Below, in pieces: positions 28,652-64,000 of a stretch of 64,000 bases of DNA. Numbering within the stretch: position 1 is the stretch's first letter; every line of letters begins with the position of its first letter. The stretch lies in assembly GCF_900167055.1 (NCBI RefSeq), contig NZ_FUXP01000007.1, forward strand, positions 1 to 64,000, in the 5' to 3' direction. The notes under the pieces were generated by a model, which saw only the letters and a program-made list of their open reading frames with translations, searched no databases and was not told where the DNA came from. The translations under genes and the position numbers were made by a program. This DNA is from Lysobacter spongiicola DSM 21749 (lineage in GTDB: Bacteria; Pseudomonadota; Gammaproteobacteria; Xanthomonadales; Xanthomonadaceae).

Positions 28652-28723
28652 GTAGGAGCGACGTGAGTCGCGACCGCCGACCGTTCGGAACCATGTACAG
28701 GTCGCGACTCACGTCGCTCCTAC
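28652..28723. repeat. GTAG-type REP pair (family B), inverted
   Basis: Perfect 23-base arms at 28652-28674 and 28701-28723 (GTAGGAGCGACGTGAGTCGC outward). The right arm overlaps the end of the PAS-GGDEF-EAL gene and supplies its stop codon (TAG within GTAGGAG, 28720-28722 on the reverse strand). Confidence 0.9.
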
Positions 28724-59493: not shown

Positions 59494-62400
59494 ATGAGCA
59501 CCCCCGCCAGCAACGTTTCCGCCGCCGATACCGGCGCGGCCACCGCCAGCGCCACGCCGCTGCGTTTCGTCACCGCCGCCAGCCTGTTCGATGGCCACGA
59601 CGCCGCCATCAACATTATGCGCCGGCTGATCCAGGCCCAGGGCGCGGAGGTCATCCACCTGGGTCACAACCGCTCGGTGGAGGACGTGGTGCGTGCCGCG
59701 CTGCAGGAGGATGCCGACGGCATCGCGCTGTCCAGCTACCAGGGCGGCCACGTCGAGTACCTCAAGTACATGGTGGACATGCTCAAGGAGCGCGACGCCG
59801 GCCACATCAAGATCTTCGCCGGCGGTGGCGGCACCATCACCCCCGAGGAGATCCGCGAGCTGCAGGCCTACGGCGTGGAGCGCATCTACCACCCCAACGA
59901 CGGCATGCACATGGGGCTGGTGGCGATGATCGAGGACGTGGTCCGCCGCGCCAGCGAAGGCCGCCAGGCCGACACCACCCCGGACAAGCCGGCCGCGATC
60001 GACGACGAGATCACCATCGGCAAGACCCTCAGCGCCATCGAGGAAGGCCTGCTGGACGAGGCCGAGCTCTCCCACCAGCGCAAGCAGTGGCAGCTGGCTG
60101 GCGGCAAGACCCCGGTCATCGGCATCACCGGCACCGGCGGCGCCGGCAAGTCCTCGGTCACCGACGAGCTGCTCAACCGCTTCCTGGCGAACTTCCCGGA
60201 GATGCGCATCGCCGTGATCTCGGTCGACCCCACCCGCCGCCGCACCGGTGGCGCACTGCTGGGCGACCGCATCCGCATGAACTCCCTGCGCAGCGAGCGC
60301 GTCTACATGCGCTCCATGGCGACCCGCCGCCAGCACGCCGCCACCAACGCCGTGCTGAAGGACTCGATCGGCTTTTTGAAGGGCCTGGGCTACGACCTGG
60401 TGATCGTCGAGACCGCCGGCATCGGCCAGAGCGACTCGGAGATCGTCGACCTGGTCGACTTCCCGATGTACGTCATGACCAGCGACTTCGGTGCCCCCAG
60501 CCAGCTGGAGAAGATCGACATGCTCGACTTCGCCGAACTGGTGGTGCTCAACAAGTACGACAAGCGCGGCGCCGAAGACGCCCTGCGCGACATCCGCAAA
60601 CAATGGAAGCGCAACCGCGTCGCCTTCCAGACCAAGGACGAGGATGTCCCCGTCTACCCGACCATCGCCAGCCAGTTCAACGACCCCGGCATCAGCTGGA
60701 TGTTCACCAACCTCTGCCGCCTGCTGCGCGAGAAGCTGGGCGTGGGTGGTGGCGCCGACGCCGGTGCATCCGGCGTGGGTGGCTCCAATGTAGGAGCGAC
60801 GTCAGTCGCGACCCCGCAGAGCTCCCCGAACGATGTACAGGTCGCGACTGACGTCGCTCCTACATCGAAAGGCAATTCCCGCTGCGACTTCCACCCCGAC
60901 ATCGACACCTCGCTGAAGGAGCCGCGCGCCACCGTCCTGATCCCCGGCAACCGCGTCCGCTACCTCGCCGAGATCGCCGAACAGGGCAGGGGCATCAACC
61001 AGCGCATCGAGAGCCAAGCCGAGATCGCCGACCGCGCGCAGTCGATGTGGCAGGCCCTGAGCGAGCTGGAAGACCCGCAGCTCCCCAAGCAGCTCGACCT
61101 CTACCAGGCAGAGGCCCTTGTAGGAGCGACGTCAGTCGCGACCGCTGTAGGAGGGTCTTCAGGCCCGACCGCGACATCCGCTGACGGCGAAACCCGCGGG
61201 GAAACCGATTCTCCGATCGCGGCTGAAGCCGCTCCTACAAATGCCCACACAGGCGCAGGGGCCCCCGACCGCACGCTGCTGAACCTCCGCCAACGCTACA
61301 ACGACGCCGTCCAATCCCTCGACTCCGAGGCCCTCAAGCTCCTGCGCGACTGGCCGGCACGCCTCAAGTCCATCACCGACGAGGTCAACGAGTACCAGGT
61401 CCGCGACAAGACCATCCGCGTGGAGAACTACCGCGAGTCCCTGTCGCACCAGCAGATCCCCAAGATCGCCGCGCCCACGTACAAGTCCTGGGGCGAGCTG
61501 CTGACCTTCCTGCAGAAGGAAAACCTGCCTGGCGCGTACCCCTACACCGGCGGCGTCTACCCGTACCGCCGCACCGGCGAGGACCCGATCCGCATGTTCG
61601 CCGGCGAGGGCACCCCGGAGCGCACCAACCGCCGCTTCCACTACCTCAGCCTCGGCCAGCCGGCCGCGCGCCTGTCCACCGCGTTCGACTCCGTCACCCT
61701 GTACGGCGAGGACCCGGCGCCGCGCCCGGACATCTACGGCAAGATCGGCAACTCCGGCGTCAACATCCCCACGCTGGACGACATGAAGAAGCTGTACTCC
61801 GGCTTCGACCTGTGCGCCCCGACCACCTCGGTGTCGATGACCATCAACGGCCCCGCGCCGATGATCCTGGCGATGTTCATGAATACCGCCATCGACCAGC
61901 AGGTGGAGAAGTACCTGCGCGAGGACCAGGCCCGCTGGGACGACGCCCGCGCGAAGATGGACAAGCTGTTCGAAGGCAAGCAACGCCCCGAATATGGCGG
62001 CACCCTGCCCGAAGGCCATGACGGCCTCGGCCTGGGCCTGCTGGGCATCACCGGCGACCAGCTGGTGGATGCCGAGACCTACGCCCGCATCAAGGCGCAC
62101 ACCCTCAAGACCGTCCGCGGCACCGTGCAGGCCGACATCCTCAAGGAAGACCAGGCCCAGAACACCTGCATCTTCAGCACCGAGTTCGCCCTGCGGATGA
62201 TGGGAGACATCCAGCAGTACTTCGTCGACAACGGCGTGCGCAACTTCTACTCGGTGTCGATCTCCGGCTACCACATCGCCGAGGCCGGGGCGAACCCGAT
62301 CAGCCAGCTCGCCTTCACCCTGAGCAACGGCTTCACCATCGTCGAGTACTACCTCGCGCGCGGCATGAAGATCGACGACTTCGCGCCCAACCTGTCGTTC

Positions 62401-63270
62401 TTCTTCAGCAACGGCATGGACCCGGAGTACACCGTCATCGGCCGCGTCGCCCGCCGCATCTGGGCCCGCGCCATGCGCGAACGCTACGGCGCCAGCGCCC
62501 GCAGCCAGATGATGAAGTACCACATCCAGACCAGCGGCCGGTCCCTGCACGCGCAGGAGATCCAGTTCAACGACATCCGCACCACGCTCCAGGCCCTGTA
62601 CGCCCTGTTCGACAACTGCAACAGCCTGCACACCAACGCCTACGACGAGGCCATCACCACGCCGACCGAAGAGAGCGTGCGCCGCGCCGTCGCCATCCAG
62701 ATGATCATCAACAAGGAGCTGGGGCTGAACTTCTGCGAGAACCCCTGGCAGGGCAGCTTCATCGTCGACAAGCTCACCGATATCGTCGAAGAGGCCGTCT
62801 ACAAGGAGTTCGAGGCCATCAGCGAGCGCGGCGGCGTGCTCGGCGCCATGGACACCATGTACCAGCGCGGCAAGATCCAGGAAGAGAGCCTGTACTACGA
62901 GCACAAGAAGCACGACGGCAGCCTGCCGCTGGTCGGCGTCAACACGTTCCTGCCGAAGGAGCACGCCGGCGACATCGTCACCGAGATCGAACTGATCCGC
63001 TCGACCGAGGAAGAGAAGGGCCAGCAGATCGACAACGTCGCCAACTACCAGCAGCTCCGCAACGCCCTGACCCCGTCCGCCCCTGTAGGAGCGACGTCAG
63101 TCGCGATCGGAACCTCTGACCGCGACGCCGGTCTCGCCTACCTCCAGAAAACCGCCCGCGACCGCCGGAACGTGTTCGAATCGTTGATGGAAGCGGTGAA
63201 GACGCACTCGCTAGGGCAGATCAGCCATGCGTTGTATGAGGTGGGTGGGGAATACCGACGGAATATGTGA
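59494..63270 (+). CDS. icmF: Fused isobutyryl-CoA mutase IcmF with in-frame REP insertions
   Basis: A 1258-residue fusion of a B12-binding domain (about 20-150, [13 protein letters not shown]), a G-protein chaperone (about 205-420; Walker [10 protein letters not shown] near 210, NKYD near 353, DPTRRRTGG switch) and the mutase (about 590-1240). It interconverts isobutyryl- and n-butyryl-CoA, and relatives act on isovaleryl-CoA. Known IcmF proteins have about 1090 residues. The excess lies partly in REP-derived stretches reading [16 protein letters not shown] and IAAEAAPT at about residues 432-457, 542-582 and 1198-1205. The frame stays open and all motifs remain, so the gene looks functional. 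The start MSTPASN has only a weak Shine-Dalgarno. Confidence 0.93.
60789..60864. repeat. REP pair (family B) inside icmF
   Basis: Perfect 25-base inverted arms at 60789-60813 and 60840-60864 (TGTAGGAGCGACGTCAGTCG outward), inside the icmF reading frame in the linker after the G domain. The left arm codes for VGATSVAT and the right arm for VATDVAPT. Confidence 0.92.
61119..61239. repeat. Cluster of three REP units inside icmF
   Basis: Three REP units in 120 bases: a family B unit (61119-61143), a variant family unit TGTAGGAGGGTCTTCAGGCC (61146-61170) and a reversed family A unit (61215-61239). All are read through in the icmF frame ([24 protein letters not shown]). They lie between the G domain and the mutase domain. 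Confidence 0.9.
63084..63108 (+). repeat. Single REP unit (family B) near the 3' end of icmF
   Basis: One 25-base family B unit without an inverted partner, read in frame as VGATSVAI, about 55 codons before the icmF stop. Confidence 0.9.
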
Positions 63271-63338: not shown

Positions 63339-64000
63339 ATGTTGAGCAAAACTCAAATAGATAAAGTTGGCGATAAATTAAGGCGTGACGAGGCTGATGA
63401 GGATGCGCTAACAAAGCTTTTTCAGTATCAGGAAGAATTTGTTCCCGCCTATAAGTATGTCGAGAGAATTCTTACGAAGAAGATGTACCTAACAATCACC
63501 GGTCGGCCGGCCAAGTCGACATTGTCAATTATCGAGAAGCTTAGACGGATCAATTCCCGGCTTTCTCAAGTTCAGGATGTGTCAGGTTGTCGTACTATCG
63601 TCCACAATCTGGCCGCCCAGGATGAAGCCATTCAGAGGGCGAAAGACTGGTTTGTGTCGTTGCAAGTGGATGATAAGCGCGACAATCCAACTCATGGATA
63701 TCGCGCGGTTCATTTGTTGGTCATGCATGAAGGAAAATGTGTGGAAGTTCAGATTCGTACTAGGATCCAACACTTCTGGGCAACTATTTCGGAAAAGCTG
63801 TCTGATACGTATGGGCAGGAGATCAAGTATGGAAAAGGTAATCAAAAGGTCCTATCACTTCTTGATCGGCTCTCGCACAACACCCGGCACTTTGATTTAT
63901 TAGTAAACCGGCTTCACGAGATGCAGCACGATCATGTGCTTGCACTATCACAGAATAGGCGGGATCAGGTGCGGACGCTAAATAAGCGCATCAAGGATCA
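63339..64000 (+). CDS. RelA/SpoT synthetase-domain protein, 3' end outside window
   Basis: An open reading frame of at least 220 codons runs off the right edge. It has the (p)ppGpp synthetase fold: TGRPAKSTLSIIEKLRR (ATP site Arg/Lys), VQDVSGCRTIV (metal Asp), THGYRAVHLLV (G-loop Tyr) and VEVQIRTRIQHFWA (catalytic Glu). The N-terminus MLSKTQIDKVGDKLRRDE has no HD hydrolase domain, so this is a synthetase-only protein. AGGGG lies 7 bases before the ATG. It is clearly AT-richer and uses AT-rich codons (ATA, TTA, AAA), unlike all neighbours, which suggests horizontal acquisition. It may be a small alarmone synthetase or a toxSAS-type toxin. Confidence 0.85.
   Translation, partial: MLSKTQIDKVGDKLRRDEADEDALTKLFQYQEEFVPAYKYVERILTKKMYLTITGRPAKSTLSIIEKLRRINSRLSQVQDVSGCRTIVHNLAAQDEAIQRAKDWFVSLQVDDKRDNPTHGYRAVHLLVMHEGKCVEVQIRTRIQHFWATISEKLSDTYGQEIKYGKGNQKVLSLLDRLSHNTRHFDLLVNRLHEMQHDHVLALSQNRRDQVRTLNKRIKD

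Follow-up and report, generated by a model that had tools for sequence, protein, structure and literature searches.

Palindromic repeats within genes have been described before. According to a BMC Genomics study from 2013 (PMC3733652), GTAG and CGTC REPs are found within genes of several species, and two Xanthomonas carry different REPs at nearly identical positions in recB. As presented there, these REPs are scattered over various genes, many of them involved in DNA synthesis or repair, and flexible linkers are mentioned. The Rickettsia palindromic elements (RPEs), in the passages of PMC3767692 consulted, lie in open reading frames (ORFs) with the frame kept, at solvent-exposed positions and at the same sites across species. 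Different RPEs at one gene position may represent a hotspot of varied origin or one old insertion that has diverged; for RPE-4, -6, and -7, the authors lean toward one common old insertion, while hotspots are still allowed. The REPIN/RAYT systems combine paired inverted REPs with a REP-associated tyrosine transposase (RAYT), and their repeats are named extragenic (PMC3116915, PMC2817692).

Here, we describe REP units inside icmF, the gene for fused isobutyryl-CoA mutase, in a 64,000-nucleotide stretch of the genome of Lysobacter spongiicola (the window). Like the REPs of PMC3733652, the units in icmF are GTAG palindromes within the open frame of a conserved gene. In contrast to the scattered distribution in that report, however, one gene is occupied at several linkers and loops, by several families, in many genera, and with a bias in reading frame. 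The main text of PMC3733652 contains neither of the words mutase and methylmalonyl. As with the RPEs, the units are in-frame palindromes in a conserved ORF, but the RPE sequence families carry other names, whereas the icmF units have GTAG stems. The original prediction had regarded the Rickettsia elements as the closest precedent; the similarity holds, although they are not the only precedent, as the REPs in genes of PMC3733652 demonstrate. Paired inverted REPs and a REP-associated transposase are shared with the REPIN/RAYT systems, whose repeats bear the name extragenic and for which no copies within genes were seen in the literature consulted. REPs in genes and RPEs are therefore already known, whereas REPs in IcmF linkers, the recurrent filling of one gene in several of its linkers with palindromes of several families in many genera, and a one-frame rule were not found in the titles, abstract openings, and passages of the literature searched.

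RESULTS

The icmF frame is open through all its codons (Table 1), and domain matches identified a B12-binding domain, a MeaB-type GTPase, and a mutase fused in one chain. ORF reading and domain matches together ruled out that icmF is a non-gene or frame-shifted. The protein is related to a solved structure, IcmF of Cupriavidus metallidurans (PDB 4xc6), which has the same fused domains in a chain of 1113 residues with shorter site 1 and site 2 linkers. Immediately downstream of icmF, at 63339-63998 and continuing past the end of the window, is a gene with a RelA/SpoT domain, whose stretch has a GC content of 46% compared with 68% window-wide; this is perhaps a horizontally acquired alarmone synthetase.

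Six GTAG REP units were found in icmF, two at site 1 (60790-60813 and 60840-60863), three at site 2 (61120-61143, 61147-61170, and 61215-61238; two forward and one reverse), and one at site 3, where five had been predicted. Each unit is a short imperfect palindrome carrying a terminal GTAG. Every unit is read through, and all three groups start at codon phase 0. The predicted three sequence families were confirmed as three stem types among these units, as was their location in an intact gene free of stops and frameshifts. The peptides lie in the interdomain linker as anticipated, but the one placed near the C-terminus is in an internal loop ~50 residues before it. No repeat was present at site 0 of the window gene, unlike at site 0 of relatives. 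In many relatives, site 3 is a conserved His/Asp-rich loop (GETSHAH..HDGHGL); in other genomes, that of L. spongiicola among them, its place is taken by repeats or a short turn. The units at sites 1 and 3 are also present in icmF of G083, a single-contig genome of the same genus, which makes an assembly artefact unlikely. The REP arms were identical at 47/48 nt, compared with 86% identity at fourfold sites, but because the arms contain only 15 fourfold sites, the claim of excess conservation was dropped.

Table 1. Location of icmF, its insertion sites, and the REP pairs elsewhere in the window
Feature	Position	Strand	Basis or product
icmF, fused isobutyryl-CoA mutase, 1258 aa	59494..63270	+	ORF reading, domain matches
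Site 0, B12-binding/G-protein linker	59962..60003	+	residues 157-170; repeats in relatives only
Site 1, inverted REP pair (REPIN-like), junction of G-protein domain and linker helices	60790..60863	+	residues 433-457, 25-residue peptide
Site 2, three REP units differing in stem type, junction of linker helices and mutase domain	61120..61238	+	residues 543-582
Site 3, one REP unit, C-terminal inter-helix loop	63085..63108	+	VGATSVAI, residues 1198-1205
REP pair, outside coding-like ORFs	14038..14113		codon score
REP pair, outside coding-like ORFs	27655..27731		codon score
REP pair with a site 1-like stem, outside coding-like ORFs	28652..28723		codon score
Two REP pairs, outside coding-like ORFs	47357..47555		codon score

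The linkers were compared with those of orthologues. Matches to icmF at E <= 0.001, counted irrespective of intactness, were present in 99 of 119 family genomes (the window genome included), and loci were taken from 30 of these 99. A scan of named genomes supplied the best 80 of 589 confirmed places. The resulting 110 loci, after removal of 8 duplicates, gave 102 distinct icmF genes from Lysobacteraceae and near relatives (among them Dokdonella, Dyella, and Tahibacter). Site 1 could be measured in 94 of these genes and site 3 in 99. The length of site 1 was most often 25 aa (35/94 orthologues), with a maximum of 73, and is 69 in the window gene. Site 2 ranged from 67 to 157 aa with a mode of 68 and is 113 in the window gene. 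The extra length expected relative to orthologues was thus observed at both sites. By contrast, the expected exact extra blocks were not cleanly recovered in the alignment, since linker residues flanking the REPs are remodelled too. In the alignment of the 102 genes, which begins at the first conserved motif with N-terminal ends removed, all 4,343 residues in minority columns fell within six blocks. The interdomain linkers 157-170, 418-472, and 542-591 accounted for 3,800 of them, and the others were located at the start of the G domain (199-205; 338 residues), in the C-terminal loop (1191-1210; 190), and at 827-829 (15). Outside the family (20 of 39 matching genomes, one gene being clipped by a contig end), site 1 was 26-28 aa (one 40), site 2 was 8-17 (one 33), site 3 was 8 throughout, and site 0 was 17-23, with one gene lacking coverage. 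In compact orthologues, site 2 is a turn of ~4 residues.

The icmF linkers of the orthologues contained GTAG stems of the types GTAGGAG, GTAGGGC, and GTAGAGC, as well as GGGGWCAG repeats translated as GQSHFS..DSDP, TTCCCGC palindromes giving IPAKAG..RLRGDD, and CCTCTCCC palindromes giving LPSP..GEG. At least one family was matched in 64 of the 102 coding sequences, and more than one in 12. Sites 0-3 contained 204 of the 216 repeat-motif matches in the 102 genes, with a generous window of 75 residues for site 0. These loose patterns have a chance background, as 5 of the 20 outside-family genes also matched one of them. The repeat classes follow our own motif rules, which, out of 102 linkers each, left 17 at site 1 and 19 at site 2 as "other". 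Just ahead of the TTCCCGC palindrome, CGTC was seen by eye in the inserts of L053 and L059; by its likeness to the dRS3 sequence, this palindrome may be a CGTC REP. Passages of PMC3733652 place dRS3 in CGTC-1 and give GGGGWSAS in inverted repeats as the TIR/TIRYT motif, and a motif of this type, GGGGTCAG, was found in inverted repeats of linker inserts in relatives. GGGGWCAG-type repeats were also seen in the B12/G-protein linker of L037, L043, L105, L106, L108, L109, and others. In some genes, a shared site 2 insert that we assigned to no repeat family (ERRxG..DRRK..F.W and variants) stands in place of repeats (L041, L083, L098, L099, L108, L113, L131, and L135; Arenimonas, one Dokdonella, and some others).

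We also examined whether families present in icmF were abundant in the same genomes. Presence in icmF was associated with more genomic copies for GTAGGAG (one-sided p 3e-4), GTAGGGC (p 1e-3), GGGGWCAG (p 1e-3, with low counts), and CCTCTCCC (p 1e-5), whereas the TTCCCGC type fell short of significance (p 0.07). Copies in icmF itself are part of these counts, which weighs on the low-copy GGGGWCAG family, and the 30 genomes tested are related and hence not independent. The G083 genome had 167 GTAGGAG matches. In three other genomes of the genus (G055, G109, and G003), there were 0-1 such matches, and GTAG units were absent at sites 1 and 3, where G083 has them. On a quick core tree, in which 34 of 99 inner branches are poorly supported, the distribution of inserts required at least 18 changes between a recognised insert and none at site 1 and at least 24 at site 2. 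The prediction of mobile REPs inserted in frame and of a tolerant linker hit repeatedly was thus far supported. Unlike the reading favored for RPE-4, -6, and -7 in the passages of PMC3767692, the icmF inserts belong to unrelated families, each repeated in the same genomes, which favors a hotspot over one diverged insertion.

REP units were also found outside icmF. The 9-mer GTAGGAGCG occurred 15 times in the window compared with 0.27 times expected from shuffles, which ruled out a chance origin of the matches. By codon score, the REP pairs elsewhere in the window are in no coding-like ORF, in agreement with the prediction that the same units are intergenic elsewhere. The pair at 28652 has the same stem type as the site 1 pair with one loop base changed, and the spacer is ATGTACA in both. 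Throughout the L. spongiicola genome, 378 strand-counted REP pattern matches were obtained, compared with 1 for a control pattern, and pairs in opposite orientation were frequent in the window and the genome sample. Only one Y1 (IS200-like) transposase gene was found in this genome. This Y1_Tnp gene (contig C13, 27318-27791, 157 aa) has REPs on either side, of the stem type of the site 1 and 28652 pairs apart from a loop base. Such an arrangement is known as a REPtron, and the gene is likely a RAYT.

To place icmF among other genes, repeat clusters were classified in samples of three genomes (1.26 Mb), one containing the window of the original finding (G000) and two picked to include icmF (G021 and G032); 8 of 113 clusters were judged intragenic, six in icmF, one in murF, and one in metG. 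In the L. spongiicola sample (G000; 464 kb, window included), three of the 48 clusters were in icmF and one in murF, the other 44 being outside genes or chance matches. In the G021 sample (400 kb), both intragenic candidates among 21 clusters were in icmF, and in the G032 sample (400 kb, 44 clusters), they were icmF site 2 and metG. The search patterns were bare 9-mers in addition for G000, strict GTAGGAG units only for G021, and four patterns for G032, with codon-score cut-offs of 0.05, 0, and 0.05, respectively. An intragenic call needed a positive codon score and at least 30 ORF codons on each side, so insertions near gene ends would be missed. In murF (contig C7, ~19727; L146), a REP unit with a changed sequence is read in frame close to the C-terminus, and in metG (methionyl-tRNA synthetase; L206, 11663-13753), a REP unit lies in the linker preceding the tRNA-binding domain. 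Five candidates were rejected. C10:79586 in G000 is a bare 9-mer within a peptidase, judged to be chance. C13:47534 in G000 and 240295, 268658, and 308586 in G032 are in ORFs without a Pfam match (the search of these four covered one ORF in part), and by eye, the repeats lie between or before likely genes of opposite strand.

We next considered the frame in which the units are read. A GTAG head can be read without stops in two ways, GTA-G and GT-AGG. In non-icmF REP dimers of L. spongiicola, the one genome from which this null was taken, the whole dimer was open in 43 versus 42 of 82 strand readings. In the icmF linkers, all 30 GTAG heads (20 loci, three sites) were in the GTA-G frame, or 30/31 if a head in L042 is included, which was excluded by eye because it appeared to belong to another element. 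On the tree, at least 23 changes, part of which are possibly losses, are required to explain the 28 site-locus cases. The original prediction held that GTA GGA GCG ACG was chosen as the stop-free frame; GTA-G is indeed the frame used, but in dimers outside icmF the second frame is about equally open. In the non-icmF dimers, the share of charged residues was 0.15 in the GTA-G frame and 0.32 in the other. A pyrimidine directly preceded GTAG in 103/103 units of the G000 sample and in 30/31 linker heads; this may add to the frame bias but would hardly yield 30/30 alone. Such a bias would be hard to explain unless the inserts were translated and screened.

RNA folding and protein structure were also evaluated. 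For site 1, the RNA was predicted to fold into a stem of 26 bp (-56.4 kcal/mol, z -11.1). The folding energy of site 2 was -63.7 kcal/mol (z -4.9), and the site 3 unit folded weakly. Among the long linkers, inverted repeats were found in 27/41 at site 1 and 58/70 at site 2, compared with 182/608 core windows and with 18% and 34% of codon-shuffled linkers, respectively. At site 3, they were found in 3/52, under the shuffled rate of 11%. The AlphaFold model of the window IcmF was poor overall (mean pLDDT 55.5) and usable for local contrast only. The pLDDT was ~30-47 at site 2 against ~86-92 in the flanking helices, and mostly 28-43 at site 1, with one ten-residue block at 77, against ~78 and ~90. 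Because of the poor overall model, these values point only weakly to linker disorder. Residues 410 and 479 of the window IcmF align to 434 and 458 of the C. metallidurans protein. In a cryo-EM study, as given in passages of PMC10481361, residues 22-442 (Cbl-binding and G-protein) and 443-1093 (linker and substrate-binding) of the latter were docked separately as rigid bodies. The aligned stretch crosses this boundary, which places site 1 at the joint between chaperone and mutase, and an altered domain spacing caused by the site 1 insert is plausible.

DISCUSSION

These results indicate that the linkers and loops of IcmF in Lysobacteraceae and near relatives are probably tolerant landing sites for active palindromes, of which only in-frame insertions with a tolerable peptide are kept. 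Palindromes active in a given genome would insert into icmF, the GTAG REPs presumably via RAYT. Insertions causing a frameshift, a stop, or damage to a folded domain would be purged, and in-frame insertions in a flexible linker would persist as low-charge, probably disordered extra peptide with fast turnover. Further selection may act on the encoded peptide. RAYT transposition, translation of the inserts, their disorder, and their near-neutrality are all things that we infer. Tolerance alone leaves unexplained why few other genes carry inserts and why the segments are short outside the group.

One alternative that is compatible with tolerant landing sites is a targeted hotspot in which the DNA sequence or structure of the linkers draws RAYT and related transposases. 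The concentration in icmF of intragenic clusters (six of eight among 113) and the pyrimidine nearly always ahead of GTAG are in line with targeting. So is one GGGGWCAG element, for which both BLAST places in G081 and 1/4 in G065 are inside icmF, while an exact 12-mer search located one further non-icmF place in each. However, unrelated families share the segments, so a single target preference is insufficient for all of them, and with site 2 being so short a turn in compact orthologues, tolerance alone would give coincident positions. We consider targeting unlikely.

A second alternative, also compatible with tolerant landing sites, is that the insertions have been co-opted as extended flexible linkers tuning the motion between chaperone and mutase. 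The location of site 1 at the boundary of the separately docked rigid bodies (passages of PMC10481361) and the long, variable segments in the group, mostly short in the 20 outside-family orthologues, agree with this, but turnover is fast and length is inconsistent, which makes recruitment doubtful. In a stronger form, of similarly low probability, the linkers would be a standing docking site at which palindromes are taken up as ready-made disordered spacers lengthening the hinge, the frame being fixed by peptide selection. Least of all do we favor an RNA role, which could likewise act together with tolerant landing sites and in which hairpins between the domain-coding stretches slow ribosomes or alter mRNA stability: the stable folds of sites 1 and 2 and the excess of inverted repeats in their long linkers would fit, but hairpins are absent from many orthologues, non-family sequence expands 17 and 19 of the 102 linkers at sites 1 and 2, site 3 has neither excess inverted repeats nor a strong fold, and the frame bias is not predicted, so that this role is highly improbable.

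With tolerant landing sites as the preferred reading, the use of a single frame offers an easily counted sign of peptides that are made and under selection. The icmF gene is a natural test bed for short mobile palindromes, usually intergenic, becoming protein in a B12 enzyme, and it offers many natural replicates of the passage from mobile DNA to protein; a homologue of the enzyme has a solved structure.
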